64,000 nucleotides of DNA, taken from the NCBI RefSeq assembly GCF_009193135.1, contig NZ_VUKC01000006.1, positions 62,001 to 126,000 on the forward strand, given 5' to 3'. Made by a program: the position numbers and the translations under genes. The DNA comes from Georgenia satyanarayanai (GTDB lineage Bacteria; Actinomycetota; Actinomycetes; Actinomycetales; Actinomycetaceae). Shown one piece after another: positions 46,401-62,875 of this stretch (within the stretch, counting starts at the first letter, position 1; every line of letters begins with the position of its first letter). Below the pieces are notes generated by a model. The model did no database searches. It saw only the letters and a list, made by a program, of their open reading frames with translations, and was not told where the DNA came from.

Positions 46401-46743
46401 GCAAACCCCGCATCAGTTGGACGCGCAACTGCTCCAGCAACTGGTCACGTCGAGCGCGCGCCGCGGTGTTGTCCGCCTCGTGGCTCGGGGCGTCATCCAC
46501 TTCCGATTGCAGGGAGTCCAACGCCTCCTGCTGAGGTCCACCGGTGACCATCCCGATCAGAATCCGGGCTACCGGCTTCCCACCACCCCCCGGTTCAACC
46601 TTCTCGCGGACGAGGTCATCAAAGGCACTCCACCCGCGCAGGTTGAAGTAGCCCACCGCCACGTCGAGCCGGTCAAACTCCTGCAGCGTGGCCTGAAGGT
46701 GCGTGCCCAGCTGGTTGTGGATGTTGTCGAAGATCCGCGTCAC
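43462..46743 (-). CDS. PLD-nuclease/SNF2-helicase fusion protein
   Basis: A 1093-residue protein. The N-terminal ~250 residues hold one phospholipase D-type motif (HGK at 146-148, GSSNLT at 166-171). An SNF2/DEAD-type helicase follows: Walker A GLGKT at 290-294, DESH at 359-362, TATPYN, and in the second lobe VFTEYKD, TDVLSEGQNLQ and QRAGRVDRVGQ. It is probably a DNA translocase/nuclease. GTG at 46743 is the most likely start because the family core begins there (VTRIFDNIHNQLG), but its ribosome-binding site is weak. It is translationally coupled to the methyltransferase. The domain set (helicase, PLD, methyltransferase) recalls DISARM, but DrmA and DrmB are absent, so that name is not used. 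Confidence 0.82.
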   Translation of the reverse strand: MTRIFDNIHNQLGTHLQATLQEFDRLDVAVGYFNLRGWSAFDDLVREKVEPGGGGKPVARILIGMVTGGPQQEALDSLQSEVDDAPSHEADNTAARARRDQLLEQLRVQLMRGLPTAADRSTLRSLRDLLAEGKVEVKVFTRRPLHGKTYVFHRQDLNTPIIGFVGSSNLTAPGLTSNLELNVDVVDSAASADLAQWFEDRWNDRFSRPVTTELLDLIDESWATPEPRRPYEVFLKVCYDLSRDVRDGEAEYSIPPEIASLLLDYQTTAVRTLARRIVTRGGTMLGDVVGLGKTLTAIAVALMLRDEHGYMPLVVCPKNLVRMWEEHLGAYDLHGKVVPYSMVHNVLPELRRYPFVIVDESHTLRNNERRDYAAIRDYIRANDSKVLGLTATPYNIQFTDVANQLGLYIEEDDDLGISPTNALAADPQLRDKVDGKISTLAAFRRSEDPDDWKRLMSEHLVRRTRSFIRSNYTAQDEHGRDYLEFADGTRFTFPDRVARPLAHDFGASDPARAMASDEALATIDALSLPRYDLARYLNRSVLLTEEERAWVEDIARGRGQVAGFVKTTFYKRLSSGGYAFTLSLHRHVARNELFLYAIDKGLPVPTGTILDVNMAWDEDETTADAEGADVLGAEPARRYEALQAASPTGVTWVRPGLFTPALRDALERDTTALSELLDSFGDWDASRDSKLHALIDLLTQRHPHDKILVFTEYKDTALYVAAELAAVGITDVAAVTGASEDPTRLAHRFSPRSNSLPGKDPGVAPEDELRVLVATDVLSEGQNLQDAHIIVNYDLPWAIIRLIQRAGRVDRVGQSADEVFIYSFFHESLENVISLRRRIAARLSANAEAFGSDEQFFGTEGEVHVISDLYNGNLDDHDGTDSIDDVDASSLAFQYWSNAEKADPALAKKIAQLPDLIDATRAQRVTDREAGVVCFVRTASGIDGFGFAPLGKEPRLLTGHEALRLFEAAPTEEGLELREDHEDLIVGLVRGPLATPQAIAGRLRGVRRQVWNRLGETLEYATRSPDTQAALEALYQHPLTREAERRLRSAIRSAVNDEALAARVTALHRDDQLVIESRTSNDPIRIVSSMGIR

Positions 46744-47042
46744 GCCGTCAGCCCGCCCGTTCTCATTGCCTCTTTGGTGCTCTACAGCGAGCACGCCTGC
46801 TGAGCCGATTCTGCCCGACAGGTGTGGCACATCGCTGGGTCGTTCCGCCTTGAGTCTTCCACCATGTTGCCCGAACTCTCGACGCGGCCACATCGAGTTC
46901 GCCACGATGCGTCTGATGCATGTCGGCGATGAAGACGGCCACGGCCGTTACGGCGTACTCGACGGAGACGTCGAGGGTCTCCTAAGCCATGAGGGAGCCC
47001 GGCAGTCACGCCATTCTGCCGACGTCGCGTACGTGGTGTGCC
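46744..47042. other. 299-bp gap, no gene seen
   Basis: Between the helicase start and the small 47043-47519 gene (same strand). Short open frames occur, but none is supported by codon bias, ribosome-binding site or a recognisable protein. It probably contains the promoter of the helicase/methyltransferase cassette. Confidence 0.5.
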
Positions 47043-48122: not shown

Positions 48123-51100
48123 CTAGAGACTGCACGCGTGCGTGTGCGAACGGCTCGCTGCGCGCCTGCGGGCCTGTGCGGTGGCCTCGGCTCGGCGGAG
48201 TGCTTCGGCGGCGCGGCCCCGGTCGCGTTCTTGGACGAGTGTCTGGGACGAGGCGCCGAGTGGCGCGGGCCCGGTGATGCCGTGACGGTCACGATAGGCC
48301 GCAACGACCGCCAGTTCGTCGAGCCACCGTTCGCGATCGCCGGCACTGAGCGGTCGCTCACCGATACGAGACAGCCACGGCGCCTGTTCGCGGACTGCAG
48401 CCTCGGCGAGCGTACGGGCGCGGGTTTCGATGAGCTCGCGGCGTTCGGCCAGCGCGCGAGCTGCGTCGGCGCGCAGCGGACCTATGACGGCGGGGATGAG
48501 TCCGGTGATGAGATCCGGCCTCGTACCGGGTGCGGGCCTTGCTGTGGCTCGGGCGAGGCGGGCGGTGAGAACGGCAGCGACGTCGCCGGCGTCGAGCAGC
48601 GTGCGCTGGGCGACGAGCCGCGGAAGCAGGGTGTCGACGTCGTAGCGGTTCGCCTCGGCGCGGCGCAGCTCGGCCATCAAGACGGTGAAGGCTCCGGAGG
48701 CGATGACCTGGCCGGCTTCGGCGGTCGTGAGCGCGCCCGCGCGTACGAGCGCGTCGGTGACGAGCCCTGTCCAGCGGTCGCGTTGGGCGGTGGCGGCGAT
48801 GGTCTCGTACTCGGCCGCGACCTGCGCGATGCCGGTCCACCGCTCCTGCTCGGCGGTGATGGTCTGGTGCGCGGTCAACTCGAGCCCAGAGTGGCTGAGG
48901 ACGCCGAAGAGGACGGTGCGCGCGGAGGTGTCGGCGTCGGCCGGGGTGGCATGCAGCGGGTCGGGCTTGTCGAGGGCGACGTAGGCGGTGTTGGCGCGTC
49001 GGCCGCGGGTCATGGAGACGTACAGGTTTTCGCGGGTGGTCGACGGGGAGACGACGACGTGCGCGGTGTCGACGGTGATGCCCTGGGCACGGTGGGCGGT
49101 GACGGCGTAGCCGAGGTCGACGTGTCGGCCGACGTACCCGGCCGGGAGCGTCAGGCCCGCCCCGCTGGGGTCGCCGACTCGGCGCACGTCGAGCGTCCCG
49201 TCGCTTCCGACGTGGGTGACGGTCCAGCGGTCACCGTTACGGACCCACGTGTCTGGGCTGGGCCGCAGGCGACGGTCGTTGCGGCGCGTGATGATGACAT
49301 CACCGGCAGACGCCCGGACGTCGTCGCGCAGAGGGACCTCACGCCGCGCGGATGTGAGGCCCGACTGGATGCGTTCGGCACGGGCACGCTCATTGAGGTG
49401 CCGCACGGACTCGGCGGCCTCGGTGACGAGGATGGACGAATGCCCGACGCGCAGGTCCTCCTGCCATGCCTCGTACGCGGCGTCAATCATGGCCTCGGTG
49501 GTGCCCTCGAGGATGCGGCCGTGGCTCTCGTACGCATCGATCGCAGCGACGTCGCCGTCACGCAGCGCGAGGGACGCGTCCTTCTCCCACTCGTGCATGA
49601 AGCGTCGCACCTCGACCAGCCGTGCGATGTCGCCGTCGCGGGCCTCGACGAGCAGGGAGAACGCTCCGCCGGCGTCGACGGACTGGAGCTGGGCCGGGTC
49701 ACCGACGAGCACGACCTTCGCGCCGACCTCGGCCGCGCGGGTCGCGATGGTCTCCAGGGTCCGCGTGGAGGCGAGGGTGGCCTCGTCGAGGATGACGAGT
49801 TGCCCAGGGCGGAAGTCGGCCTTGCCGCGCCGGTGGTCGTGAACCCACTTGGCTGTGTTGTCGCAGCCGATGCCAAGGTCTTCGGCGAGCACCTGCGCGG
49901 CGGCGGCCGACGGCGCCATGCCGACTACGGACCCAGGCCCGTGCTGGGCGGTCCAGGCACCGAGAAGGGCGGCCATCGCAGTGGACTTACCGGTGCCCGC
50001 CGGGCCGACCAGCAAGTCCAGGCGCCGTCCAGACGCGAGGACCCGGGAAAGCGCGGCGGCCTGCTCGCCGTCGATCGCCACGCCATCGACACGGGCGCTG
50101 GGCACGTTCTCGACGATGTGCTGCGGGCCGACGAGGGCCGGGAGTCGGTCCTCGGACAGCGCGAGCAGCCGATCCTCCGCGGTGAGCAGGTGCTCGCTCG
50201 TGTAGTACGTCGAGTGTCGAGGTCGCAGGGTGCTGGTGCCGTCCTCCCGCCGCATGGCGGCCGGCGTGATGGTGGCCTCGCCTGGGGTGAGGGGGACCGA
50301 CTGCCGGGTGGCGGCATCGGTGATGAGCGCGACGACGAGGTCGCGGTGCTCCACGGTCTCGAAGCGCCAGCCCATCGTGCGGCGCGAGGCCTCGGCCCAC
50401 AGGTTCCAGTGCCGCCAGGTCGACCGCTTCTCAGCGACCGCGTCCACGACGTCGGCAGCGGCCTGGTCGATCAGGTACATCGGCACGGAGTCGTGGGTGA
50501 GGACCTGCGCGGGCGGACTCTTGGTGAGTTCGCGCGCCCACTCGGTCGGGTCGCCCCGGACGATCTTCTGTGCGCGTGCCCGCCACTCGGCGGTCAGATC
50601 CGCCAAAGCGCGAATGTTCTTCTCCGGCCGCGTGTCGAGCGTGGCCTGGGCGCGCATCCGCACGATGCGCCGGTCGGAGGGGTAGTGGCCGTGCTCGCCG
50701 ACGTAGTCGGCGATCTTGGCGTCGGTGGCAATGTCGATCGCGCGGGCACGGCTGGAGAATGCGGCGACGAGGTCCTCGCTGACGCCCTGGATCTCCCACT
50801 GGGCGCAGCGGTCCTCACCACGCTCGCGCCGCTCCCACGACAGGCCAAAGGTCCCGGTGAGCCGGTCGGCCAGGACGGCGTTGTAGTGCTCGGACAGCGC
50901 GACAATCGAGTGGTGGACGGCCTTGCTGTCCAGCGTGCGCCACTGCCCGTCATGAGCGGTCAAAACCTTATTGGACACGACCACGTGGGTGTGGAGCTGT
51001 GGGTCGTTGGCGCGGGAGTCCCAATGGTCGTACGCCGCGGCGGCGATCCCGACGACGGGCACCTGCGCGATGCCGGCGTGGCCGGTGCGGGTGGCCGCGA

Positions 51101-51653
51101 CCTCGCGCTCGAAGAGGTCGAGGACCTGGGCGACGGCGGCGTGGTGGGCCGCGACGATCAGCTCCTGGGTGTTCGCGTCGGCGACGCCCCACAACACGGA
51201 GACCGACTTGGGCACGGAGAAGGTCAGGTCGAACCCGGCGGTCGCGGTGCGCGGTCCGCGGACGGCTTGCTCGGCCTGGATGCGGGTCACTTCGGTGTCG
51301 AACTCCTCGACAGGCAGGGTCCGGTCGATGCGAGAGATCATCGCGGAGGTGCGCTCAGTCACGGTCGGGTACTCCCGAAAGGGCTGGCCGAGGTTCTCTC
51401 CGGTGACCGGGTCGTCGCCACGTCCCAGAAGCGCCTGGAGGTGCTCGGGCCTTACCGTCATGCCGGGGCGCAGCTCACCTGTCCCGAAGTACGCCACGCC
51501 TTTGCCCATCCACACACCGGGCGGGGTGCCGGCCTCCGTGAAGTACCGCGTAAACCCGGTCGCCTGGGCAGCGTCTCCGTCGCCTTGCACGACCGAGCGG
51601 AGCAGGTAGCCGTAACCGCTACCCGCCGAGACCACGCGCATCGAGACCGTCAC
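48123..51653 (-). CDS. MobF-family relaxase/helicase (TraI/TrwC-like)
   Basis: A 1176-residue conjugative relaxase. The start at GTG 51653 gives VTVSMRVVSAGSGYGYLL, typical of actinobacterial MobF proteins; Tyr14 and Tyr16 are the probable catalytic tyrosines. The three-His metal site is H210, H221 and H223 (DHWDSRANDPQLHTH). The middle holds a TraI-type superfamily 1 helicase (Walker A VGPAGTGKST near 555, LVILDEATLAS, AVTAHRAQGITVD). A helical C-terminus ends the protein. It should nick the oriT strand and unwind it for transfer. The long open frame on the opposite strand is a shadow. The gene is divergent from the Tad operon. Confidence 0.93.
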   Translation of the reverse strand: MTVSMRVVSAGSGYGYLLRSVVQGDGDAAQATGFTRYFTEAGTPPGVWMGKGVAYFGTGELRPGMTVRPEHLQALLGRGDDPVTGENLGQPFREYPTVTERTSAMISRIDRTLPVEEFDTEVTRIQAEQAVRGPRTATAGFDLTFSVPKSVSVLWGVADANTQELIVAAHHAAVAQVLDLFEREVAATRTGHAGIAQVPVVGIAAAAYDHWDSRANDPQLHTHVVVSNKVLTAHDGQWRTLDSKAVHHSIVALSEHYNAVLADRLTGTFGLSWERRERGEDRCAQWEIQGVSEDLVAAFSSRARAIDIATDAKIADYVGEHGHYPSDRRIVRMRAQATLDTRPEKNIRALADLTAEWRARAQKIVRGDPTEWARELTKSPPAQVLTHDSVPMYLIDQAAADVVDAVAEKRSTWRHWNLWAEASRRTMGWRFETVEHRDLVVALITDAATRQSVPLTPGEATITPAAMRREDGTSTLRPRHSTYYTSEHLLTAEDRLLALSEDRLPALVGPQHIVENVPSARVDGVAIDGEQAAALSRVLASGRRLDLLVGPAGTGKSTAMAALLGAWTAQHGPGSVVGMAPSAAAAQVLAEDLGIGCDNTAKWVHDHRRGKADFRPGQLVILDEATLASTRTLETIATRAAEVGAKVVLVGDPAQLQSVDAGGAFSLLVEARDGDIARLVEVRRFMHEWEKDASLALRDGDVAAIDAYESHGRILEGTTEAMIDAAYEAWQEDLRVGHSSILVTEAAESVRHLNERARAERIQSGLTSARREVPLRDDVRASAGDVIITRRNDRRLRPSPDTWVRNGDRWTVTHVGSDGTLDVRRVGDPSGAGLTLPAGYVGRHVDLGYAVTAHRAQGITVDTAHVVVSPSTTRENLYVSMTRGRRANTAYVALDKPDPLHATPADADTSARTVLFGVLSHSGLELTAHQTITAEQERWTGIAQVAAEYETIAATAQRDRWTGLVTDALVRAGALTTAEAGQVIASGAFTVLMAELRRAEANRYDVDTLLPRLVAQRTLLDAGDVAAVLTARLARATARPAPGTRPDLITGLIPAVIGPLRADAARALAERRELIETRARTLAEAAVREQAPWLSRIGERPLSAGDRERWLDELAVVAAYRDRHGITGPAPLGASSQTLVQERDRGRAAEALRRAEATAQARRRAASRSHTHACSL

Positions 51654-52018
51654 ACCACCCAGGTGCGCCTCGGGTGCCAGAGGTGTGAGGACCACGAAGG
51701 CCACCGCGCTCAGGGCTGTTGTTGGCGGGCTCCTGCGGTCGGTTCGGCCGCGGGGCGGATTCCGACAAGGAAGGGTTCGAGCCCTCTCGCGAGGTCGTGC
51801 GGTGACGACTGTCGGCGGCGCCACGGCGGTCCCCGCACACCTAGTCATCGGACGAGCTCGCTGCTGCTCGTTGGAACGCGGGATGGGCTGGCTTGGATCG
51901 CGGCAGGAGGGTGGTAATCGGACCCATGGATCTGCAACACTTCACGCGTCGGCCTCCGCGCGAGGTCGTCCGCGTACACAGGGCACGCAAGAAGTACTCG
52001 AACAAGGGCGTCGAGGGC
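51654..52018. other. 365-bp divergent intergenic region, possible oriT
   Basis: It lies between the relaxase start and the Tad-cluster lipoprotein start. It should carry promoters for both directions. For MobF systems oriT commonly lies beside the relaxase gene, so this is the best place to look, but I do not see a textbook nic site or strong inverted-repeat array. Short open frames here are not convincing. Confidence 0.35.
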
Positions 52019-52660
52019 ATGCACCTTGGGGGTCGAGGTAGGGCACTAACAGCGGCGACGATCCTGGCGCTCGTCGTCACCTCCGCCTGCTCAGGCTCGC
52101 CCGAACCGACAACCACGCCGACTCCCACAGTAGCGACCTCCGCGCCTCCTTCGCCCACACCGTCGCAGAGCCCGTCATCAACTTCCGCTTCGGCCTCCGA
52201 AATCGCGGCGCGGGATGCCGAGGCGGTGCTACGGGAGTACTACCAGGTCATCGATGAGCTCCGTGCCAATCCGAACGCGGATCTCTCCATCCTTGACAAC
52301 GTCGCGGTCAGCGCCGCCCTGGTGTCGCGTCAGCGACAAGTTGAGCGTGAGCGCGGCGAAGGTTGGCACCAGACCGGCGAGACGAGGATCGTCGAGCTCG
52401 AACCCAAGGGCGTCAACCTCGACAACACGGACGGCGGAGGCACGACGGTACCGGTGGTCCAGCTCGATGTCTGCATCGACGTCGGCGATGTCGATATCGT
52501 CGACGCGAACGGCAGCTCCGTCGTTGCTGATGAACGGCCAACCCGGGGATGGGAACGGCACACCGTCGCGAACTACGACTGGGAGAACGACCCAGCCGGT
52601 GGGTGGCGAGTGTCGACTAGCCAGACTCTTGAGCAGCAGCCATGCGACTCCGCCGACTGA
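52019..52660 (+). CDS. secreted lipoprotein
   Basis: A 213-residue lipoprotein. The signal peptide ends in the lipobox VTSAC, followed by a Ser/Thr/Pro-rich linker (residues ~24-65) and a globular domain with a helical part (AVLREYYQVIDELR) and a beta-rich part ending near QLDVCIDVGDVDIVD. ATG 52019 is chosen because the signal peptide starts there. The fold is unassigned and may be related to small actinobacterial lipoproteins that sit at the start of pilus operons. Its stop lies 18 bp inside the next gene. Confidence 0.75.
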   Translation: MHLGGRGRALTAATILALVVTSACSGSPEPTTTPTPTVATSAPPSPTPSQSPSSTSASASEIAARDAEAVLREYYQVIDELRANPNADLSILDNVAVSAALVSRQRQVERERGEGWHQTGETRIVELEPKGVNLDNTDGGGTTVPVVQLDVCIDVGDVDIVDANGSSVVADERPTRGWERHTVANYDWENDPAGGWRVSTSQTLEQQPCDSAD

Positions 52661-53541
52661 CGCGTGGCGTCGCCACACTTCTCGCCTTGCCGTGCTTCTT
52701 CGCGTTCGGTGTCGGAGCCACTGAGGCCGCTCCTAAGTGCCTCCAGGTCGACCTCGTTACAGGCATCTGCGTTATCAGGATCGACGTACCGGCGGCTCCT
52801 CCCTCGAACGAGAACATCTCCGATGAGCGGGGACCGGCTGATACTGGCTCGGACTTGCCATGCTGGCAGGACCCTTCCAGTTTCACGAGGCTTGATCCGC
52901 AACCTGAACCTGGTGACCCCCTCTGGGGCGGGCGTGATCCGGCTGACGGTGGGGCGATCTACCACTGTCATATCCCCGACCCAGAGTCGCTTATCAGCAA
53001 CATCTTCATCTGGCTCGCCGAGCCACCCGCGGCGGTGGCACCGGTGCCCTCCCCGCGGGACCTTGCCCAGACCGCGGTGGACTCGATGGGGCTGGAAGCG
53101 ATTGAGATCGGGATCGTCCCCGAGCCGGGTGCCGGGTCTCTCGGTCTGGTGGGCATGCCGGTGTGGATGTGGGCGGCGGAGCCGGGCCCAAGCACGGTGG
53201 GACCCATCTCGGCGTCGGCGTCGGCCGGCGGCGTCACGGTGACCGCGACCGCACGCGTCAGCACGATCACCTGGGACATGGGTGACGGCAACACGGTCGT
53301 GTGCCACGGAGGCGGTACGGCGTACCACCCGAGCCACGGACGGCAGCAGTCACCGGACTGCGGTCATGTCTACACGACGTCGTCCGCCGGCGAGCCAGGG
53401 GACAGGTTCACCGTCACGGCGACCTCGGACTGGGTCATCACCTGGGAAGGCGCAGGGCAAAGCGGAACTATCCGGATGGACGGGCTCTCTCAGTCGGTGC
53501 AGGTCGCGGTCGGGGAAGCGCAGGTGCTCGTGACCTCGTAA
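52642..53541 (+). CDS. secreted protein with Ig/PKD-like C-terminal domain
   Basis: A 299-residue exported protein with a Sec signal peptide (cleavage after ATEAA, ~residue 30), a Pro/Asp-rich middle and a C-terminal beta-sandwich-like domain with ITWDMGDGNTVVCHGGG and SPDCGHVYTT. Several Cys residues could form disulfides. This type is common near the Tad-type cluster of actinobacterial elements (from memory). It may be a surface component of the pilus or an adhesin; function not proven. ATG 52642. Confidence 0.7.
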   Translation: MRLRRLTRGVATLLALPCFFAFGVGATEAAPKCLQVDLVTGICVIRIDVPAAPPSNENISDERGPADTGSDLPCWQDPSSFTRLDPQPEPGDPLWGGRDPADGGAIYHCHIPDPESLISNIFIWLAEPPAAVAPVPSPRDLAQTAVDSMGLEAIEIGIVPEPGAGSLGLVGMPVWMWAAEPGPSTVGPISASASAGGVTVTATARVSTITWDMGDGNTVVCHGGGTAYHPSHGRQQSPDCGHVYTTSSAGEPGDRFTVTATSDWVITWEGAGQSGTIRMDGLSQSVQVAVGEAQVLVTS

Positions 53542-53568
53542 GCGAGCACCGCGACGAAAGTGGGGGAA

Positions 53569-54228
53569 ATGACTAGCACAACGACACGGCCCGACGAGAC
53601 GACGGGCGAGCGGACCTCACCGCCGGGCGCACCGCCACGGCTGCGACGCCGGCCCGCGATCGCCGCGGTCGGTGCGGTGGTGGCCCTCGCCAGCGCCGGT
53701 GGCATTGGGTGGTTGTTCTCCCGGACCGACGACGCGGTTGAGATCATCGTCGCCGCACAGGACGTCGGACGCGGCGAGGTGCTCGAGGCCGGTGACCTGA
53801 CTACCGCTCGCATCACGCTCGACCCGGCCTTGTCGCCGATCGCGGCGTCGAGGGCTGCTGAGATCGTCGGTCAACGGGTCTCCATTCCGCTCACGGCGGG
53901 AGGGCTGGTCACTGAGGCCATGCTCGCGCCCGAGGCCCTGCCGCCCGACGGCATGTCGCTGCTGCCTGTGACGCTTCCGGCCGAGCGCGCCGACGGCCTG
54001 GATCTCCAGCCCGGTGACCGGGTCAAGATCGTCGTGACTCCTGAACCCGGTCAGGAGCCCACAGGCATCCCGCCCTTCTCCACGGCCGAGGTCGCGACGG
54101 TAGCCCTCAGTGCGGACACCGTCTCGACGGTGGTGACACTCCTGGTGCCCGAGGTCGACGGGCCTGTGCTTGCCGCCCGGCTCGCCGCCGGGAACTTCTA
54201 CCTCGTTCTGGACTCGCGGGAGCGGTGA
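53569..54228 (+). CDS. SAF-domain (CpaB/RcpC-like) pilus assembly protein
   Basis: A 219-residue protein with one membrane helix at ~30-50 and an extracellular SAF domain from ~57 (AAQDVGRGEVLEAGDLTTARI, GQRVSIPLTAGGLVT). CpaB/RcpC proteins help export Flp pilins. ATG 53569 is supported by GGGGG 4-5 bp upstream. It begins the coupled tad-like gene run; 7 bp separate it from tadZ. Confidence 0.85.
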   Translation: MTSTTTRPDETTGERTSPPGAPPRLRRRPAIAAVGAVVALASAGGIGWLFSRTDDAVEIIVAAQDVGRGEVLEAGDLTTARITLDPALSPIAASRAAEIVGQRVSIPLTAGGLVTEAMLAPEALPPDGMSLLPVTLPAERADGLDLQPGDRVKIVVTPEPGQEPTGIPPFSTAEVATVALSADTVSTVVTLLVPEVDGPVLAARLAAGNFYLVLDSRER

Positions 54229-54235
54229 ATGAGCC

Positions 54236-55015
54236 ATGGCAGTGATCACGCTGTGCTCGGCGTCGGGGTCTCCGGGTGTCACCACGACAGCGGTCGGGCT
54301 CGCGATGTGTTGGCCTCGCCCGGTGCTGGTGGTGGAAGCCGACCCGTCCGGGTCCAACGGGCTCCTGGCTGGGATCTTCCGCGGTGCCCGGGAGTATGAC
54401 GGCGGCCTGCTCGAGCTCGCGTCCTCCCCGCTGGCGGTCTCCGACGCGCTGCGTGATGTCGTGCGGCCGATCGAGACGACGGGAGTGTCCTTCGTGGTGG
54501 GCACTCAGACGCACTCGCAAGCGGCCGCGCTGAGCGGGTTGTGGGCGCCGCTGGCCGAGGCGCTGGCTGACCTGGAACGCAGCGGGCAGGACGTCATCGT
54601 CGATGCGGGACGGCTGGGTCTGGTCGGCTCCCCCGAGCCGCTGCTGTCGTGGGCGGACCTGACGCTCCTGGTCACCCGGACCACCCTTCCCGCCCTCGCG
54701 GGCGCCCGGACATGGGCCGAAGACCTGCGATCGCCGTCGTCCAGCACTTGGCGCGAGTCTGGCCTCCTGCTCGTTGGTGACGGGCCGTACACGAAGCGGG
54801 AGGTCGGCAGGGCGCTCACCCTGCCGGTGGTCGCCACGGTCGCCGAGGATGCCGTCGCAGCAGCCGTCTACCACCGGGGCGCGCCTCCCCCGCGGCGCTT
54901 CGAGTCCGGCCCGTACGCGCGGTCGCTTCACGCTGCTACGCAGGCCATCACCTCGACCGTGACTCGCTTGCGCGAGCAACGGACCGCTGATCTGACCGGG
55001 GACGCGACCTTATGA
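54236..55015 (+). CDS. tadZ: TadZ/CpaE-like ParA-family protein with altered P-loop
   Basis: A 259-residue ParA/MinD-like protein expected to place the Tad machine. The P-loop is SGSPGVTTTA (residues 10-19): the conserved Lys of KGGxGKT is missing, so ATP hydrolysis is doubtful. TadZ proteins of other bacteria are also often atypical. Walker B-like EADPSGSNG and AGRLGLVG follow. The ATG at 54236 is 7 bp after the SAF gene; its stop overlaps tadA by 4 bp. Confidence 0.82.
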   Translation: MAVITLCSASGSPGVTTTAVGLAMCWPRPVLVVEADPSGSNGLLAGIFRGAREYDGGLLELASSPLAVSDALRDVVRPIETTGVSFVVGTQTHSQAAALSGLWAPLAEALADLERSGQDVIVDAGRLGLVGSPEPLLSWADLTLLVTRTTLPALAGARTWAEDLRSPSSSTWRESGLLLVGDGPYTKREVGRALTLPVVATVAEDAVAAAVYHRGAPPPRRFESGPYARSLHAATQAITSTVTRLREQRTADLTGDATL

Positions 55016-56391
55016 CCACCACCGACTCCACACGCCACACCGCATCCGGCATCGCGGCCCAGGACATCGACTGGCCGCTCGTCGCCCAGCTCCGGGCCCG
55101 CGCCTCGAGCCAGCTCTCCGACGCGGTCGGACAGCACGGCACGCTGTCGAAGCGAGCGCAGGAGGAGCTCGGCCGGTCGATCATCCTTGCCCTGCTCGAA
55201 GCTGAAGTCGCTGACCGCATCGACTCCGGTCTACCAACATGGAACCTGCTTCAGCAGCAGGCGATCGCACGCGCGGTATTCGACGCCCTGTTCCGCCTCG
55301 GCCGGCTCCAGCCGCTCGTCGACCATGACGACGTCGAAAACATCATGATCGACGGGTTCGACAACGTGATCCTGGAGATGTCCGACGGCCGTCGAGTCCA
55401 AGGTCCACCGGTAGCGGACTCCAACGGCGAACTGATCGAGTTCCTCTCGTTCCTCGCCTCCCGGTCGGAGGCCAACGCACGAGAGTTCTCCGAGGCGAAC
55501 CCGACCCTGGACATGCGCCTGGACGGCGGATCCCGGTTGGCGGCGTCGGCCTGGGTGTGCCCGCGCCCTCAGGTCAACATTCGCCGTCACCGATTGGTGG
55601 AGGTCTCTCTCGAAGACCTGGTGCTCCTGGGAATGCTGACTCCGTTGGCGTCCTCGTTCCTGATCGCCGCCGTCCGGGCACGCAAATCGATCGTCGTCTC
55701 CGGCGCCCAGGGCGCGGGCAAGACGACGCTCGTACGAGCGCTGTGCGCCGAGATCGACGAGTGGGAGCCCATCGGGACGTTCGAGACCGAGCTCGAGCTC
55801 TTCCTGCACGAACTGCGTCACCGGCACCACATGGTCCGCTCATGGGAGCACCGCCCCGGCACCGGGGAGATCGGACCGAACGGACGCCGACCGGGTGAGT
55901 TCACGCTCGACCAGGCGTTGTCAGCCTCGCACCGCTACAACCTGTCACGGCAAATCGTCGGTGAGGTCCGTGGCTCCGAGGTCTGGCCGATGATCAAGGC
56001 GATGGAGTCCGGCACCGGCTCGATCTCCACCACGCACGCCTCGGACGCCGTGGCGGCGATCCGCAAGCTCGTGACCTGCGCGATGGAGGCCGGTCCGCAC
56101 GTCACCGCCGAGCTGGCCACCACAAAGCTCGCAGCGACAATCGACCTGATCGTCCACGTCGACATGTCCACCACGAGGACCGACGGCCAGACGACCCGCA
56201 CCCGACGGGTGGCCGAGATCGTCGCCGTCGCCCCCGGCGAGCAGGCCACCGGGTATGCAACCACGCACGTCTTCGCCGCAGGGCCCGACGGCGTCGCCGT
56301 GCCCGGCGTCCTGCCCGACGAATACCGAAGGCTGGCCCGGTTCGGGTTCGACCTCACCGGTTACCTCGCAGACCGGCCAGAGGTGACGTGA
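55012..56391 (+). CDS. tadA: TadA/CpaF-type secretion ATPase
   Basis: A 459-residue hexameric motor of the type II/IV secretion ATPase family. Visible are Walker A GAQGAGKTT near 231, the Asp/Glu box GTFETELELFL, Walker B-like SRQIVGEVRGSEVWPMIKAM, and the His box GSISTTHASDAVAAI. It should power Tad-type pilus assembly. It overlaps the tadZ stop by 4 bp and is followed directly by tadB. Confidence 0.93.
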   Translation: MTTTDSTRHTASGIAAQDIDWPLVAQLRARASSQLSDAVGQHGTLSKRAQEELGRSIILALLEAEVADRIDSGLPTWNLLQQQAIARAVFDALFRLGRLQPLVDHDDVENIMIDGFDNVILEMSDGRRVQGPPVADSNGELIEFLSFLASRSEANAREFSEANPTLDMRLDGGSRLAASAWVCPRPQVNIRRHRLVEVSLEDLVLLGMLTPLASSFLIAAVRARKSIVVSGAQGAGKTTLVRALCAEIDEWEPIGTFETELELFLHELRHRHHMVRSWEHRPGTGEIGPNGRRPGEFTLDQALSASHRYNLSRQIVGEVRGSEVWPMIKAMESGTGSISTTHASDAVAAIRKLVTCAMEAGPHVTAELATTKLAATIDLIVHVDMSTTRTDGQTTRTRRVAEIVAVAPGEQATGYATTHVFAAGPDGVAVPGVLPDEYRRLARFGFDLTGYLADRPEVT

Positions 56392-57233
56392 TGCTCCTCG
56401 TCATCATTTCCGGCGCCGCCCTGGGCATGGGTCTGGTCGCGGTCGTCGTCGGCCTCACTCCCACGCCGCCAGCGCCACCTCGGCCGTCGGGCAGCGGCAC
56501 CCGGTTCGCCATGTCGAAGCGGTCGCGCCTGACGCTCTTGGCCGGCCTGGGCGGCGGCCTGCTCGCCTGGCAGATCACCGGCTGGGTGCTCGCCATCGTC
56601 GTCGTCCCGGTTGCCGTACTCGGCCTACCCGCCCTGCTGTCGGGGTCGGATGCGAAGACCCAGATCCTCAAATTGGAGGCGATGGCCGAGTGGACCCGCG
56701 CCCTGGCCAGCGTGCTCACCGTGGGGATTGGGCTCGAGCAGGCACTGCTCATCTCCGTGCGGTCGGCGCCGGCGGCGATCGAGCCAGAGGTGCGCCGCCT
56801 GACCTCCCGGCTTCGCGCCCGGTGGCGCACCGAGGACGCGTTGCGCGCCTTCGCCAACGAGCTGGACGACGCCACCGGCGACCTCATCGCGATGAACCTC
56901 GTTCTGGCCGCCCGCAAGCGTGGTACCGGCCTGGCTTCGGTGCTCGAAGCTCTCGCGGAGTCCGTCGCCGAGGACGTACGGGCGCGTCGCCAGATCGAGG
57001 CCGACCGAGCCAAGCCCCGGGCGACGGCCCGCTGGGTCACGGCCATCTCCGTCGCCGTGTTCGCGGTGCTCTCACTGACCAGCTCCTACAGCACCGCCTA
57101 CCGGTCCCCAGTCGGTCAGGTGGTGCTCGTCGTGCTGCTCTCGGCCTACGTCGCAGCGTTGGTCTGGCTCAAGCGCATGGCGGCCGGGGAACCGTGGCCC
57201 CGCCTACTCACCCAAGACGGGATCCGCCCATGA
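56391..57233 (+). CDS. tadB: TadB-like type II secretion F-domain membrane protein
   Basis: A 280-residue inner-membrane platform protein. Hydrophobic helices are present at the N-terminus (two), with the cytoplasmic T2SSF domain (MAEWTRALASVLTVGIGLEQALL ... RKRGTGLASVLEALAESV), and two more at the C-terminus. Start ATG at 56391 overlaps the tadA stop (GTGATG); a GTG at 56388 is possible. The stop overlaps tadC by 4 bp. Confidence 0.9.
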   Translation: MLLVIISGAALGMGLVAVVVGLTPTPPAPPRPSGSGTRFAMSKRSRLTLLAGLGGGLLAWQITGWVLAIVVVPVAVLGLPALLSGSDAKTQILKLEAMAEWTRALASVLTVGIGLEQALLISVRSAPAAIEPEVRRLTSRLRARWRTEDALRAFANELDDATGDLIAMNLVLAARKRGTGLASVLEALAESVAEDVRARRQIEADRAKPRATARWVTAISVAVFAVLSLTSSYSTAYRSPVGQVVLVVLLSAYVAALVWLKRMAAGEPWPRLLTQDGIRP

Positions 57234-58138
57234 GCCCACCGCTGCTCCTCGTCATGGTGCTCGGCGCTCTCGCCGGCGCGAGCCTCGTCCTGCTGTGCAC
57301 CCAACTCCCACCCGCGCACGTCGAGCTGCACGACGCGTTCGACCGCATGACTCCCGCTCGTCACCGCAAGCTCGCCGACCTGCAGACCCCGGCAGACGCG
57401 GGACGCAAGGAGCGGCTCGGAGTGTGGGCGATGCGGGCACTGCCACCGGCGGTGTGGGTGCGCACCCCGGCCCGCGAGCTCGCCCTGCTGCGCATCCCAC
57501 TGGCGCGGTTCTACGGCGAGAAGCTCCAGTTCGCCGCCCTCGGGCTGCTCATCCCACCCCTGATGAGCACGTTCTTCGCCCTCCTCGGACTGGATCTGCC
57601 GTTCGCGATGCCCGCTGTCGCCGCCCCCGCACTGGCAGCGGTCATGTTCTTCATCCCGAACTACAACGCACTCGATGGCGCCAAGAAGGCGCGCGGGGAG
57701 TTCCGGCGCGCCATGGCCGCCTACATCGACCTCGTCGCCACCGAACGGCACAACGGCGCGGCCACACGCCAGGCGATGGAGTCCGCAGCCGAGGTCTCGC
57801 ACAACTGGGTCTTCAGGCGCATCGCCGAAGAGCTGCGCCGGTCGGGGTTCTCCGGCGTCCCGCCGTGGGACGCGCTGCACGCCCTCGCCGATGAGCTCAC
57901 CCTGCCCGAACTGGCGGACTTCGCCGACATCATGCGCCTGTCCGGTGCGGAGGGTGCCGCAGTCTACGCCAACCTGCGAGCCCGCTCCGCCGCGCTGCGG
58001 ACGGCGATGCTCAGCGACGAGCTCGCCGTCGCCAACGCGCTCGGGGAGCGCATGACAATCCCCGGCTCACTCGTGGGCGTCATCTTCATGGCCCTCCTCC
58101 TCGCCCCTGCCCTGCTGGGCATGTTCACCGGCACCTGA
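57230..58138 (+). CDS. tadC: TadC-like type II secretion F-domain membrane protein
   Basis: A 302-residue paralogue of TadB. N-terminal membrane helix, then paired helices (FAALGLLIPPLMSTFFALLGL, FAMPAVAAPALAAVMFFIP), a T2SSF domain (FRRAMAAYIDLVATERHNGA ... ADIMRLSGAEGA) and a final helix (GVIFMALLLAPALLGMF). It forms the platform with TadB. ATG at 57230 overlaps tadB by 4 bp. Confidence 0.9.
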   Translation: MSPPLLLVMVLGALAGASLVLLCTQLPPAHVELHDAFDRMTPARHRKLADLQTPADAGRKERLGVWAMRALPPAVWVRTPARELALLRIPLARFYGEKLQFAALGLLIPPLMSTFFALLGLDLPFAMPAVAAPALAAVMFFIPNYNALDGAKKARGEFRRAMAAYIDLVATERHNGAATRQAMESAAEVSHNWVFRRIAEELRRSGFSGVPPWDALHALADELTLPELADFADIMRLSGAEGAAVYANLRARSAALRTAMLSDELAVANALGERMTIPGSLVGVIFMALLLAPALLGMFTGT

Positions 58139-58208
58139 CATGCCGCGCACACCTGGAAAACCGTCGGCCGCCGCGCACCTCACATCCAAACCCTGGAAGG
58201 ACGAAACC

Positions 58209-58400
58209 ATGTCGCACCTCCTCACCGCCCTGACGCTGCTCAAGGCGCACCTGACCATCCCCGACCGTCACCCGGAGCGTGGGTCGGTCACCATCGAGCA
58301 CGTGCTGTGGGCGGTCGCCGTCATCGCGATCGTCGCCATTGTCGTCGCGGCAATCACGAACTACGTCACGACACAGTCCGGGCGGATCTCAGGGCCATGA
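58209..58400 (+). CDS. Flp-like type IVb prepilin
   Basis: A 63-residue pilin. The prepilin site is G25|SVTIE, with Glu at +5 of the mature protein, followed by a long hydrophobic helix (HVLWAVAVIAIVAIVVAAITNYV). Typical size for Flp major pilins. GGAAGG lies about 10 bp upstream of the ATG at 58209. This fits the pilin of a Tad machine, and it is the only pilin of this small type in the window. Confidence 0.85.
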   Translation: MSHLLTALTLLKAHLTIPDRHPERGSVTIEHVLWAVAVIAIVAIVVAAITNYVTTQSGRISGP

Positions 58401-58804
58401 CTCCTCTACGGCTGGCCACGCATCGGCGCCGTCGGCGGTGGGAGCGGGGCTCGGTGTCGGTCGAGTTGGTGGTCTTGCTGCCGGCGATGTTCGCGATCGT
58501 GCTGCTCGGCGTCCAAGGCGCGTTGTACTACCACGCGCACACCGTGGCCATCGCCGCGGCCCAGGAAGGCGCCCGCGCAGCTGGGGCGAAGGACTCCTCC
58601 GTTGGCGCTGGCATCGCTGCCGCCACGGACTTCGTCACCGACGTCGGGCAGCACGCGATCACCGAGGTGTCGGTCGGTGGGGAGCGCGGAGACCAAGTCG
58701 CTCGCATCACCGTGACCGGCACCGCGGCTTCTATCCTGCCCGGCTTCGCCCCGCAGATCACCGCGCGGGCCGAGGCGCCGGTAGAGACGGTGACGGCACC
58801 ATGA
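58397..58804 (+). CDS. tadE: TadE-like pseudopilin 1
   Basis: A 135-residue pseudopilin. The basic leader is followed by G18|SVSVE with Glu at +5, a hydrophobic helix (LVVLLPAMFAIVLLGVQGALYYH) and a globular beta-rich C-terminus. Start ATG overlaps the pilin stop by 4 bp, and its own stop overlaps the next gene by 4 bp. Confidence 0.87.
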   Translation: MTPLRLATHRRRRRWERGSVSVELVVLLPAMFAIVLLGVQGALYYHAHTVAIAAAQEGARAAGAKDSSVGAGIAAATDFVTDVGQHAITEVSVGGERGDQVARITVTGTAASILPGFAPQITARAEAPVETVTAP

Positions 58805-59244
58805 ACCGGTTGCGCAGGGTCATGCACGCGGGCGAGCGGGGGTCAGTCTCGCTCGAGGCGGCGATCGTCGTTCCGGCGTTCATCCTCTTCGTCGGTCTGC
58901 TCATCTACGCCGGCCGCACCGCGGTCGCTCTCCAGGGCGTGGAGGCCGTCGCCTACGACGCCGCCCGGTCCGCGTCCATCGCCCGCACCCACCTCGAAGC
59001 ACAGGAACGGGCCGCGACGGCGGTCGACTACGCGTTGGCGGCACGAGGGCTGCGGTGCGCGAGCTACGACATCGACCTCGACACCTCCGGCCTGGACAAG
59101 CCCGTCGGTGTACCGGGCACGGTCACCGCGACCGTCTCCTGCACGATCGACCTGGCAGATCTCGCCGTGCCCGGTGTGCCGGGCCATCGCACGGTCTCGG
59201 CGACCATGTCCGCCGTCGTCGACGCCTATCGGGCGGCGCCATGA
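58801..59244 (+). CDS. TadE-like pseudopilin 2
   Basis: A 147-residue pseudopilin with site G14|SVSLE (Glu at +5) and a hydrophobic helix (AAIVVPAFILFVGLLIYAGR), then a C-terminal domain with two Cys (LRCASY, ATVSCTI) that could form a disulfide. ATG at 58801; overlaps both neighbours by 4 bp. Confidence 0.86.
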   Translation: MNRLRRVMHAGERGSVSLEAAIVVPAFILFVGLLIYAGRTAVALQGVEAVAYDAARSASIARTHLEAQERAATAVDYALAARGLRCASYDIDLDTSGLDKPVGVPGTVTATVSCTIDLADLAVPGVPGHRTVSATMSAVVDAYRAAP

Positions 59245-59693
59245 TCCGGCGTCGCGCCGTGTGTGGGTGGCTGGCAGGAGCCGGGCGGGAGGAGCGCGGC
59301 TCGATCTCGGTGTGGGCGGCGACATCGGCGATCATCATGATGATCTGCGTCGGGATCGCCCTGGACCTCGGCGCCCAGATCCACGCCCAGCAGCACGCAC
59401 GCGGCGTCGCCGCGCAAGCCGCCCGCGTCGGTGGCCAACAGCTGGACGCCGCCGCCGTCACCGGCGCCTACCCCTCCCTCGCCGTCGGCCACGCGCGCGT
59501 CGCCGCGCAGGCCTACCTCGACGCCTCCGGCGTGGAGGGGACCGTGACTGTCACCGGCGGGGACACCGTGCACGTGTCAGTCACCGACACCTACGACCCG
59601 CGCTTTCTCGGGATTATCGGGATCTCAGACCTCACCGTCACCGGAGACGCCACCGCCCAAGTGATTCGCACGTTGGGAGATCGGGAACAATGA
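59241..59693 (+). CDS. TadG-like pseudopilin (no Glu+5)
   Basis: A 150-residue protein with a basic leader, G20|SISVW and a hydrophobic helix (AATSAIIMMICVGIALDLG). The +5 position is Trp, not Glu. This matches TadG-like N-terminal segments, which often lack the Glu. ATG at 59241 overlaps the previous gene and its stop overlaps the LysM-BTAD gene, both by 4 bp. Confidence 0.8.
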   Translation: MIRRRAVCGWLAGAGREERGSISVWAATSAIIMMICVGIALDLGAQIHAQQHARGVAAQAARVGGQQLDAAAVTGAYPSLAVGHARVAAQAYLDASGVEGTVTVTGGDTVHVSVTDTYDPRFLGIIGISDLTVTGDATAQVIRTLGDREQ

Positions 59694-62600
59694 CGTCGCT
59701 TCAGGAACGACTTCTCGGGCTGCTCGCCACTCTCTCCCTGGGCGCATTCGCCGTCGGGTTCCCCGCGCTGCTGACGCTCATCGGTCTGAGCCCCGCCGGC
59801 ATCGCCGTCCACCCCGTGTGGACGCAGCTGCTCGATGCCGCGGACTGGAACATCGTCTGGGTCGGATTGGGCATCATGGGCTGGGGCGTGTGGGCGGTCC
59901 TGGTGTACTGCCTGCTCGTCGAGCTGACCGCTGCGATCCGTAACGTCCACGCGCCCGAGCTGCGCGGGCTGTCCCTGCCCCAGCACATGGCTCGCACCCT
60001 GATCGCGTGGGCCGCGCTGCTCTTCGTCACCGCGTCCGCGCCCGCGCCCTTCGCCGCCGCGGCCGCCGGCTCGGAAGTACCGGCCATCGCCGCCGCGGCG
60101 CCGCTGCGTTCCGACACGGTCACCCCGCCGGCCGCCCCGGTGGCCGCGACCGTGACCCATACCGGTTTCGCCGGCATTCCCGTTCATGCCCCGGCCGCGC
60201 AGCCCGCCGCTCGGACGGGCACGGTCCCGTACACCGTGGTCCGAGGTGACACGCTGTGGAAGATCGCCGAGACGATGCTCGGCGACCCGCTGCGCTACCC
60301 GGAGATCGCGGCACTCAACAGGGACGTCCTGGGTGATGAGCCCGACTTCATCACCCCGGGCATGCAGCTCTTCTTGCCCAGTGACGCACGCACGGAGGCC
60401 CCGGTCGAGACGACGGGCACCGTCGTCGTTGAGCCCGGCGACACGCTCGCTCAGATCGCGCTCGAGGAGCTCGGCGACGCCGGCCGTTACCCGGAGATCT
60501 TCGAAGCGTCCAACGACATCGTGCAGCCCGACGGCGCTCGTCTGACGGACCCCGACCTCATCCGACCCGGTTGGGAACTGACCCTGCCCGGCAGCACGAA
60601 CGTTGGCGAGGCCGATGCCGCTGCCGTGACCGGGCGACCGCCCTCGGCGGAGCCTCAACCACCTGGGCCCGCGGCCGCCGCGCCGGCGCACATCGCTCCG
60701 CCGCCGGCGCCAAAGGCCCAGCCGTCCACACCTGCTCCCAGCGCATCACCACTCATCCCGGCACCGGCGGCGCCGAGTCAGCCGCTCCCCCAGGCACCGC
60801 CGCCGGCTCAAGGCGTGGCACCAGAGTCCATGGACGGATTGCTGTGGCCCGCCCTGACCGGGGCGGGCGCCGTGCTCGCGGGCGTCCTACATCTTGTCCT
60901 GCGCGGTAACCGTCGCTCACAGCTGCGGTTCCGCACCCCGGGCATGCTCATCGCGCCCGAGCCCGGCGAAGTTGCCCCGGTCGACCGGACGACCCGGGTC
61001 GTGGGCGGTCCGGCCGCGCCGCGGCTCCAGGCACTCGACCGGCTGCTGCGGTCCTTGGCCTCCGCCTACGTCGCCCCCTCCCGATACCCGCCGCTGCTCG
61101 CCGTCGAGCTCACCGCCGACACCGCGACACTGCACCTGGCCGAGGACGCCACGCCACCCGAACCATGGACCGGTGGCGGCACGCGCTGGACCGTCCAGAT
61201 CGATGCGGACGTCCCGGACCCGGACACGCTCGCGCCCTACCCCATGCTGGTCTCCGTCGGAGCCGACGACGCGGGCACCATTTGGCTGCTCAACCTCGAA
61301 CGGTTCGGTGTCCTCAACGTCGTTGGCACGCCCGCGGACGCCCAGCGGTTCGGTCGGCACGTCGCCGCCGAACTCGCCCTGTCACCCTGGTCGACGCTCG
61401 TCCAGGTCCACACACTCGGATTCGGTGAGGAGCTGGCCGACCTCGACGAGTTCCGCCTCAGCCCCTACCCCGCCGGCGACACCAGGGCACCGGAAGCCAT
61501 CACGCGATCAGCGCGCAACTCGCACTCCTACGACCCTGAGGAGCTGCACGTCGTCGTCATCGCCGCCGGTGCCGACGCCGCGCAGGACACGGCCCAGCTC
61601 ACCGCAGCGATACACGCGCACGAGGCGCGGCCAGGGGTCGCCGTTGTCACCCTCGCCGGCGCCCCCTCACACTCCGTCGCCGTGCTCGAGGTCGACGGCT
61701 CCCACCTGCGAGTACCGGCCCTCGGGATCAACCTCCGCGCGCCCGGGCTCACGCAGGCCGAGGCAACGGCCATCGCCGAGATCGTGCGCGTCACCCGCCG
61801 GCACACGAACGTGCCCGCACCCGTCGATGAGCAGCTCACCGAGGGGTATGGGGCACTCATCACCGCGACCGGCGCGCTACGCGAGCCGCTGGTCGACGAC
61901 CGGCCAGCTCCCGACCAACCGGGTGGACCGACATCGCTGCTCCCCGAGCCGGCCACGGCATACACCGAGGTCGCCGCAACAACCGAGGACGACGTCGCCG
62001 CCCTCGCCCCACCCGTCCCGAAATCGACGACCGACGCCGTGCTCGCGGCCGACCCGACTCTGGATGAGGACCTCACGCTGTGGCGAATGGGTGACAAGTG
62101 CCCGGTGCCGCGGGTCATGCTCCTGGGAAAGCTCCGCGCGACCGCGCACGGCGTCAGCCAGGAGGTCTCCGAGCGCAAGCACCACTACATCGAACTCCTG
62201 ACCTACCTGTGGTCACACCCGCACGGTGTCACCGCAGCGACCTTGGCCGACGAGTTCGGGTACAAGCGCGAGCGCGCCCGCGTCGAGATCAGCCACCTGC
62301 GCAAGTACCTCGGCACCGACCCGCGCACAGGAGAGAGCTACCTGCCCACCGCCCCAGGCACTCGGGAGCGCACCGAGAACGGCTGGAGGGGGTACACGTT
62401 GCGCGGCGTGCTGTTCGACGTCGACCTTTTCCGCCGCCTGCGCGTGCGCGGCCAGGCACGCGGTGCGGAGGGGCTGCCTGACCTCGTCACCGCTTTGCAC
62501 CTGGTGCGCGGTGAGCCGTTCGCGGACCTGCGCGCCGACTCGTGGACGTGGATGTTCGAGGGCGAACGCCTCGACCAGGAGTTCGCCGCGGCAATTATCG

Positions 62601-62875
62601 ACGTCGCCCACCTCGTCGCCACCCGCTCCATGAACGACGGCGACCTGCCAACCGCGCGCCGCGCCGCCGAGATCGCGCTCAGTGCCTCCCCATACGACGA
62701 GATCTCCCGCCTCGACCTTGCCAGGGTCGCCGAACTCGAAGGCAACCACGCCGAAGCCGCACAGATCAGGGGCGAAGGCATCTTCAAACGCACCGACGAC
62801 TATCGCGCCCCGCTCGACCCCGCGGAGCGAACCGAGAAGATCACCGCGGCACCAAGACGCCCGGGCAAACGGTAG
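59690..62875 (+). CDS. transmembrane LysM-BTAD fusion protein
   Basis: A 1061-residue fusion. N-terminal helices (~8-33, 53-80, 102-120) precede two LysM domains (~180-230 VPYTVVRGDTLWKIAE; ~243-300 VVEPGDTLAQIALEEL). A Pro-rich linker (~315-378) and a membrane helix (~383-404) follow. The cytoplasmic part contains, from ~805, an OmpR/SARP-like winged helix (GVTAATLADEFGYKRERARVEIS), then a BTAD domain (~910-1040). The layout suggests a receptor that senses peptidoglycan outside and acts inside the cell, last gene of the Tad operon. The ATG overlaps the tadG-like stop by 4 bp. Similar LysM/BTAD proteins exist in other actinobacterial Tad-like loci; the function is unproven. Confidence 0.85.
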   Translation: MTSLQERLLGLLATLSLGAFAVGFPALLTLIGLSPAGIAVHPVWTQLLDAADWNIVWVGLGIMGWGVWAVLVYCLLVELTAAIRNVHAPELRGLSLPQHMARTLIAWAALLFVTASAPAPFAAAAAGSEVPAIAAAAPLRSDTVTPPAAPVAATVTHTGFAGIPVHAPAAQPAARTGTVPYTVVRGDTLWKIAETMLGDPLRYPEIAALNRDVLGDEPDFITPGMQLFLPSDARTEAPVETTGTVVVEPGDTLAQIALEELGDAGRYPEIFEASNDIVQPDGARLTDPDLIRPGWELTLPGSTNVGEADAAAVTGRPPSAEPQPPGPAAAAPAHIAPPPAPKAQPSTPAPSASPLIPAPAAPSQPLPQAPPPAQGVAPESMDGLLWPALTGAGAVLAGVLHLVLRGNRRSQLRFRTPGMLIAPEPGEVAPVDRTTRVVGGPAAPRLQALDRLLRSLASAYVAPSRYPPLLAVELTADTATLHLAEDATPPEPWTGGGTRWTVQIDADVPDPDTLAPYPMLVSVGADDAGTIWLLNLERFGVLNVVGTPADAQRFGRHVAAELALSPWSTLVQVHTLGFGEELADLDEFRLSPYPAGDTRAPEAITRSARNSHSYDPEELHVVVIAAGADAAQDTAQLTAAIHAHEARPGVAVVTLAGAPSHSVAVLEVDGSHLRVPALGINLRAPGLTQAEATAIAEIVRVTRRHTNVPAPVDEQLTEGYGALITATGALREPLVDDRPAPDQPGGPTSLLPEPATAYTEVAATTEDDVAALAPPVPKSTTDAVLAADPTLDEDLTLWRMGDKCPVPRVMLLGKLRATAHGVSQEVSERKHHYIELLTYLWSHPHGVTAATLADEFGYKRERARVEISHLRKYLGTDPRTGESYLPTAPGTRERTENGWRGYTLRGVLFDVDLFRRLRVRGQARGAEGLPDLVTALHLVRGEPFADLRADSWTWMFEGERLDQEFAAAIIDVAHLVATRSMNDGDLPTARRAAEIALSASPYDEISRLDLARVAELEGNHAEAAQIRGEGIFKRTDDYRAPLDPAERTEKITAAPRRPGKR

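Follow-up and report, generated by a model that had tools for sequence, protein, structure and literature searches.

To our knowledge, regulators of the SARP family are soluble activators. In the complex of AfsR with its promoter, R87, R94 and K95 contact the backbone of the DNA and T88 and R92 its bases, and D71 and E76 contact RNA polymerase (PMC10936776, excerpts). FimV has an outer LysM domain that binds peptidoglycan and a TPR end inside the cell; the protein helps to place type IV pili in P. aeruginosa and was reported to play no part in the pilus-dependent motility of P. putida (PMC12918733, excerpts). A gene with the Pfam entry 'LysM, BTAD' was listed in 2013 in a Tad locus of plasmid pIMPLE-HL096PA1; this gene, PAGK_2369, lies directly after three tadE genes and before a gene called RcpB, and was labelled TadB, Flp pilus assembly protein (PMC3666418, Table 2, excerpts). 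Here we present a related arrangement in Georgenia satyanarayanai, in a window of 64,000 nucleotides (the whole stretch analysed, positions 62,001 to 126,000 of contig NZ_VUKC01000006.1, to which all coordinates below refer). Directly after tadG in a tad operon, a gene encodes a 1061-residue protein with LysM domains and a predicted SARP tail, hereafter the LysM-SARP protein. We read it, with a probability of about one half, as a wall-anchored base protein of the Tad machine whose SARP tail couples the state of the machine to transcription.

We computed the order of the domains, the topology from charge, the folds, the loss of the Walker A motif and the place in the operon. The genomic relatives used (L086 to L165) were the best 80 of 192 from a pattern scan with the alignment of the cytoplasmic part. 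After omission of six truncated sequences, 74 full-length relatives, which align along the entire LysM-SARP protein, gave an alignment of 75 rows; for the alignments of 51 rows, 24 more were omitted as redundant (85% or more).

An earlier note on this DNA had claimed a SARP-like C-terminal region with BTAD, and had named the absence of DNA-contacting helices from a predicted structure as a reason to abandon its reading. In the AlphaFold2 model (pLDDT 91) the tail matches AfsR and EmbR over 219-233 residues and the helices of the winged helix-turn-helix (wHTH) domain are present, so that the tail was modelled as a complete SARP module, an OmpR-type wHTH followed by BTAD, with the whole fold. 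The Pfam BTAD score of the LysM-SARP protein is below the cut-off (12.6 bits in the whole protein and 15.2 alone, versus 22.1), and the assignment of BTAD therefore needs evidence beyond sequence search. This evidence consists of the predicted structure, a profile-profile comparison (94.8%, E 5e-8; 0.1% for two control regions) and two of seven distant members that score above the Pfam cut-off (30.1 and 23.5). Among close relatives, 4 of 51 reach E 0.1 with Pfam BTAD (best 0.017), and one of 11 members of the plasmid set reaches E 0.01. In the alignment, AfsR R87 corresponds to R864 (Arg in 74/75 members), R94 to R871 (75/75) and D71 to D854 (D or E in 67/75). The wHTH has a positive net charge in every one of the 75 members (+1 to +10, mean +6), with a mean of -8.7 for the BTAD part. 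The charge of the recognition helix averages only +1.8 in the family, versus +4 in both AfsR and the LysM-SARP protein.

The two LysM domains that the earlier note had described were recovered with Pfam PF01476 (cut-off 20.9 bits). LysM1 scored 38.3 bits, and LysM2 gave no separate stretch in the whole-protein scan and, scanned alone, 21.6 bits in two broken stretches. LysM-like motifs, defined by simple patterns of our own, were present at LysM1 in 67 and at LysM2 in 69 of the 74 full-length relatives. The Pro-rich linker of the same note was also confirmed, with 29% Pro and poor conservation. Four hydrophobic segments were found, three of them N-terminal (residues 8-40, 54-84 and 104-126) and one at 384-404, where the Kyte-Doolittle value reaches 1.64 and a basic tail follows; the note had seen the helix near 383-404 and had overlooked the three N-terminal ones. 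The mean numbers of K/R and D/E in the 74 full-length relatives were 2.2 and 0.1 for the N-terminus, 1.1 and 3.6 for loop 1, 3.8 and 1.2 for loop 2, 3.9 and 16.8 for the linker before the fourth helix, and 6.2 and 0.0 for the tail after it. The positive-inside rule then predicts a cytoplasmic location for the N-terminus and for the C-terminal two thirds, with the LysM domains outside. This charge distribution supports the earlier placement of LysM outside and SARP inside; a search for signs of an extracytoplasmic C-terminal region, which the note had named as its other possible refutation, gave none, the basic tail being predicted as cytoplasmic.

Between the membrane and the SARP tail lies a cytoplasmic domain that was absent from the earlier domain list (LysM, linker, helix and SARP). 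In structure comparison this domain has the FtsK/EccC fold; the conjugation coupling protein TcpA was also among the fold matches. The Walker A pattern [AG]xxxxGK[ST] was found in none of the 75 aligned members and none of 17 plasmid members. Because Walker A is absent, the domain was not classed as an active ATPase, and it appears from the sequences to be catalytically dead.

The gene order in the window is rcpC-tadZ-tadA-tadB-tadC-flp-tadE-tadE-tadG, followed by the LysM-SARP gene, the ATG of which overlaps the tadG stop codon (ATGA). In relatives, the space between tadC and tadE holds a small hypothetical gene, and the probable Flp pilin open reading frame (ORF) has a matching position. Ten plasmid loci (L002-L011), picked from the matches of the LysM-SARP protein itself, have this gene order with minor differences. 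In L006 an integrase segment interrupts the order and the rcpC end is outside the stretch, in L005 neither rcpC nor tadZ was recognised by tblastn, L011 has one extra ORF, and in L003 the annotated LysM-SARP coding sequence begins about 400 nucleotides after tadG. The place after tadG is a regular one, with a tadG match upstream of the LysM-SARP gene in 72 of the 80 genomic relatives; the remaining eight loci (L100, L102, L104, L131, L137, L146, L152 and L159) start at contig ends. With start codons of the relatives set by a simple rule, the median distance from the tadG stop was -4 nucleotides, an overlap, and the distance was at most 20 nucleotides in 69 of the 72 loci; the single large gap (524 nucleotides, L144) is probably due to the rule. 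Of six plasmid Tad loci chosen by hand from 60 listed TadA matches, five have the LysM-SARP protein encoded after the tadG position. In eight pairs of copies, each pair from a genome with at least two Tad loci, the identity was 39-91%. In the Micrococcus plasmid L167, four genes separate the tadG position from the LysM-SARP gene, and in this plasmid and the Kineococcus plasmid L172 an annotated A24/prepilin peptidase gene lies directly after the LysM-SARP gene.

The tight coupling to tadG makes a component of the machine the most likely identity of the protein, and the retention of the SARP module makes an added regulatory or DNA-related role plausible. The earlier note had offered two alternatives, a one-component receptor and a pilus-base protein; these are compatible with each other, and the operon data favour a dedicated Tad part over a lone receptor. 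That the protein binds peptidoglycan and DNA and docks in the Tad machine is inferred, and this applies most of all to the coupling and its target. As a dedicated base component of a plasmid- or ICE-type (integrative and conjugative element) actinobacterial Tad pilus machine, the protein would be anchored in the membrane by its four helices, and the two LysM domains, beside a flexible Pro-rich arm, would clamp peptidoglycan near the pilus exit. The dead FtsK/EccC-type domain might dock or oligomerise at the cytoplasmic face, with the SARP module hanging in the cytoplasm and binding DNA. Docking to the wall or to the assembled pilus could then change the oligomeric state or the position of the SARP tails, and so alter transcription of the operon or of other genes of the element. 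More tentatively, this would amount to a pilus machine with a built-in transcription factor, in which a wall-anchored membrane SARP on an inactive EccC/FtsK-type platform responds to docking at peptidoglycan or to assembly of the pilus by switching genes directly, with neither kinase nor second messenger in between.

Several observations weigh against a regulatory Tad component of this kind. A gene at the end of an operon with translational coupling to a machine gene more often encodes a structural part than a regulator. The topology of the protein is a prediction from hydropathy and charge. The divergence of TadA and of the LysM-SARP protein is correlated (r 0.65 over 68 loci, reached by 0 of 999 permutations), a value that is confounded, as species relatedness by itself could produce it. 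One of the six hand-picked plasmid loci, Glutamicibacter L171, is without the LysM-SARP protein, and the Georgenia genome has two more TadA-like genes (33% identity on contig C6, L176; 28% on contig C12, L177), with the LysM-SARP gene as the only match of its kind in that genome; the protein is therefore not universal to Tad systems. After tadG, the L171 operon has three ORFs that match none of the segment models of the family. In the wHTH, the position of AfsR K95 (K872) is D or E in 44 of 75 members, the base-reading T88 and R92 align with the variable positions V865 and H869, and the loop that bears E76, E77 and P79 in AfsR, E76 being a polymerase/sigma contact, is absent in the alignment. 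Taken together, the wHTH data speak for nucleic-acid binding and disfavour a close copy of the AfsR mode of activation.

No operator stood out upstream of rcpC in alignments of three clades (6, 6 and 7 loci; L143 was omitted as it has no rcpC match), which is a crude form of footprinting, and the conserved blocks are positioned either within coding sequence or immediately before rcpC. An upstream search for repeats of at least 8 nucleotides, those of SARP boxes usually having 6-7, gave no SARP-type repeat. Both negatives are weak evidence. The sole direct repeat of this length in 51700-52070 lies at 51980 and 52014, 34 nucleotides apart; it overlaps the inferred first start codon, was not found in plasmid pYJNG and was taken as chance. 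The earlier suggestion of a target near 51654-52018 thus received no support.

The main rival, which we consider possible and yet rather doubtful, is a purely structural scaffold similar to FimV/HubP. In this case the LysM domains would anchor the Tad base to the wall, recruitment of TadA or TadZ would fall to the TPR-like BTAD together with the dead EccC-type domain, and the wHTH would be a non-regulatory module for protein interaction. Translational coupling to tadG, the single copy in each Tad locus of this type, the variable base-reading positions, the missing sigma loop and the lack of an operator in the clade alignments would all fit such a scaffold, as would the succession of LysM, membrane helix and cytoplasmic TPR, which is the plan of FimV, a protein that localises type IV pili in P. 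aeruginosa (PMC12918733, excerpts). However, the wHTH goes beyond the TPR-like part and keeps the SARP fold with both backbone arginines, and its positive charge stands against the negative mean of the BTAD part; the analogy is also loose, given the reported lack of a role of P. putida FimV in pilus-dependent motility.

A DNA tether, in which the wHTH keeps plasmid or ICE DNA at the pilus or at the site of transfer, in the service of conjugation or partition, and has no transcriptional role, is improbable. It would agree with the TcpA fold match, with the 186 plasmid records matched by tblastn at E 1e-5, of which some may owe the match to LysM only, and with the MobF/TrwC relaxase gene that is divergent beside the operon both in the window and in the Microbacterium plasmid pYJNG. 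This neighbour was found, however, in only one of 90 loci within short flanks, several members lie on contigs of more than 1 Mb that may be chromosomal, and the BTAD of AfsR contacts RNA polymerase (PMC10936776, excerpts). A fusion or annotation artefact, for which no point was found, is refuted by the end-to-end alignment of the relatives and the presence of all three domains in the plasmid members, and the single open frame with its GC content by codon position (0.75/0.54/0.85) also speaks against it; we give it practically no credence.

Table 1. Features of the tad operon and of the LysM-SARP protein (window coordinates; residues in brackets)
Feature	Position	Strand	Evidence or remark
Probable lipoprotein, first operon gene	52019..52660	+	ORF, start inferred by eye; tblastn match in 37/80 loci
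Tad-linked protein, probably secreted (by eye)	52642..53541	+	No Pfam family; tblastn (E 1e-3) in 71/80 loci
rcpC/cpaB (SAF domain)	53560..54228	+	Pfam E 6.1e-9
tadZ/cpaE position	54236..55015	+	No Pfam match; gene order; tblastn match in 66/80 loci
tadA/cpaF ATPase	55012..56391	+	T2SSE E 2.4e-18; TadA-family model
tadB (T2SSF)	56388..57233	+	E 3.7e-12
tadC (T2SSF)	57230..58138	+	E 1e-7
Probable Flp pilin	58140..58400	+	Short ORF; GSVTIE prepilin-like site judged by eye
tadE-like	58397..58804	+	Pfam TadE E 1.5e-11; exact start unsettled
tadE-like	58801..59244	+	Pfam TadE E 9.1e-7
tadG-like	59241..59693	+	Pfam TadE 23.9 and Tad 23.2 bits (cut-offs 22.9, 22.3); stop overlaps LysM-SARP start
LysM - pseudo-ATPase - SARP membrane protein, 1061 residues	59690..62875	+	Directly after tadG in tad operon
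Predicted TM1 (approx. 10-32), N-terminus inside	59717..59785	+	Hydropathy, charge
Predicted TM2 (approx. 54-76)	59849..59917	+	Hydropathy, charge
Predicted TM3 (approx. 104-126)	59999..60067	+	Hydropathy, charge
LysM1 (181-230), predicted outside	60230..60379	+	Pfam PF01476 E 1.3e-9
LysM2 (243-301), predicted outside	60416..60592	+	Pfam LysM, scanned alone
Pro-rich linker (302-383), predicted outside	60593..60838	+	Mean pairwise identity 0.24
Predicted TM4 (384-403), out to in	60839..60898	+	Hydropathy, family alignment, charge
Basic tail after TM4 (404-418), predicted cytoplasmic	60899..60943	+	Family mean charge counts
FtsK/EccC-type ATPase fold without Walker A (438-704)	61001..61801	+	Predicted structure, fold matches, alignment
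OmpR-type winged helix (805-905), recognition helix 859-874	62102..62404	+	Structure, profile-profile comparison, alignment
BTAD (906-1035), TPR-like helical domain	62405..62794	+	Structure, profile-profile comparison

The left part of the window harbours chromosomal-type genes (RelA/SpoT, SecD/SecF), followed by genes for MmeI-type restriction, a PLD-helicase and the MobF/TrwC relaxase, and then the tad operon. The MobF/TrwC relaxase-helicase gene occupies 48123-51848 (-); among the 90 loci with their short flanks, this neighbour was present only in pYJNG (54.8% identity). At 40703-46905 (-), an MmeI-type restriction-modification gene lies beside one for a PLD-nuclease/SNF2-helicase; the two may form a defence island within the same element. 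The gene at 35552-37927 (+) encodes an ATPase with AAA_21/AAA_15 matches that is possibly related to defence. Beyond the window, oxidoreductase, M81 peptidase and symporter genes are followed by weak ParB-like and M23 peptidase genes, the latter two about 12-15 kb past its end (L178 13935-16833; ParB-like 21.4 bits, below the cut-off of 26.3). An integrated conjugative or mobilisable element around the tad operon is possible. Matches to the protein encoded at 52642-53541 are upstream of rcpC in many loci, and in several Nocardioides loci they lie downstream of the gene for the LysM-SARP protein.

At E 1e-3 the tblastn search gave 223 plasmid records. Among the matches listed, the plasmid genera were actinobacterial, except for a short LysM-only match in Acaryochloris, and the record titles of the best 80 of 192 genomic relatives also name actinobacteria. 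LysM, the pseudo-ATPase and BTAD were present in all 17 plasmid members examined. The NCBI names in the listed plasmid rows are mostly 'LysM peptidoglycan-binding domain-containing protein', with 'BTAD domain-containing putative transcriptional regulator' or a similar name in a few. In the Nocardioides plasmid pCHL (L003), predicted cmx, sul1 and aadA2 resistance genes lie a few kb from the Tad operon, and the LysM-SARP coding sequence as annotated is without the N-terminal membrane helices. A viral or phage origin was rejected. A first viral/phage scan with the whole LysM-SARP protein gave no match, and neither did the cytoplasmic part against viral contigs; a viral_contigs query that included LysM gave 74 loci, all matching within residues 97-322, around LysM, of which the one read (L012) encodes a LysM protein of different make. 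In the phage collection, the ten matches listed of 72 were to the LysM region.

In the full-text literature search, the scope of which excluded subscription papers and preprints, LysM and BTAD in one Tad gene were recorded, among the matches listed, only in PMC3666418, in the available text of which each word occurs once, both in the table. PMC8213781 names LysM and BTAD in injection-system loci (excerpts), and the paper on chromosomal tad clusters of M. luteus (PMC4322843) does not use the word LysM in its available text. PMC12075869 was discarded as a BTAD paper, 'BTAD' there being a journal article number. The literature search found no functional study or mutant of the LysM-SARP protein, and the literature looked into, part of it as excerpts, gave no report of the pseudo-ATPase, of a topology with four helices or of linkage to the operon across the family. 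If the regulatory reading is true, a complete SARP on a wall-anchored pilus component joins machine assembly and transcription in one protein, in Tad operons found in genomes and on many plasmids of actinobacteria. A purely structural protein would still be a little-noticed part of the Gram-positive Tad machine, which has no secretin as anchor, and an instance of the reuse of an FtsK/type VII secretion fold in this machine.

With AfsR and EmbR, the LysM-SARP protein shares the whole SARP fold as predicted, the order of wHTH and BTAD, and the two backbone arginines. In contrast to these regulators, its SARP module is C-terminal and predicted to be tethered to the membrane, the HTH loop is shorter, LysM domains and a pseudo-ATPase are added, and the NOD/TPR part of AfsR and the FHA part of EmbR are absent. 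Unlike EccC of type VII secretion and FtsK, it has no Walker A in any of the 75 members, a single domain of this type, and LysM outside; the further ATPase domains of EccC and the gamma domain of FtsK are replaced by SARP. Regulators of the CadC/ToxR type likewise combine an OmpR-type wHTH with a membrane tether and an outside part, but in the opposite domain order, without BTAD and with a single membrane segment; the CadC profile match was weak (E 1.6). NCBIfam includes FimV-type models, and none of these was among the five NCBIfam matches (E up to 1) of the LysM-SARP protein. Given this and the four hydrophobic segments, the protein at most works like FimV. It differs from FimV/HubP in its four membrane segments, ATPase fold, wHTH and actinobacterial origin, and shares with them LysM outside, a membrane helix, a TPR-like cytoplasmic end and, for P. 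aeruginosa, the link to type IV pili (PMC12918733, excerpts). By analogy of layout, FimV is the nearest known working analogue.

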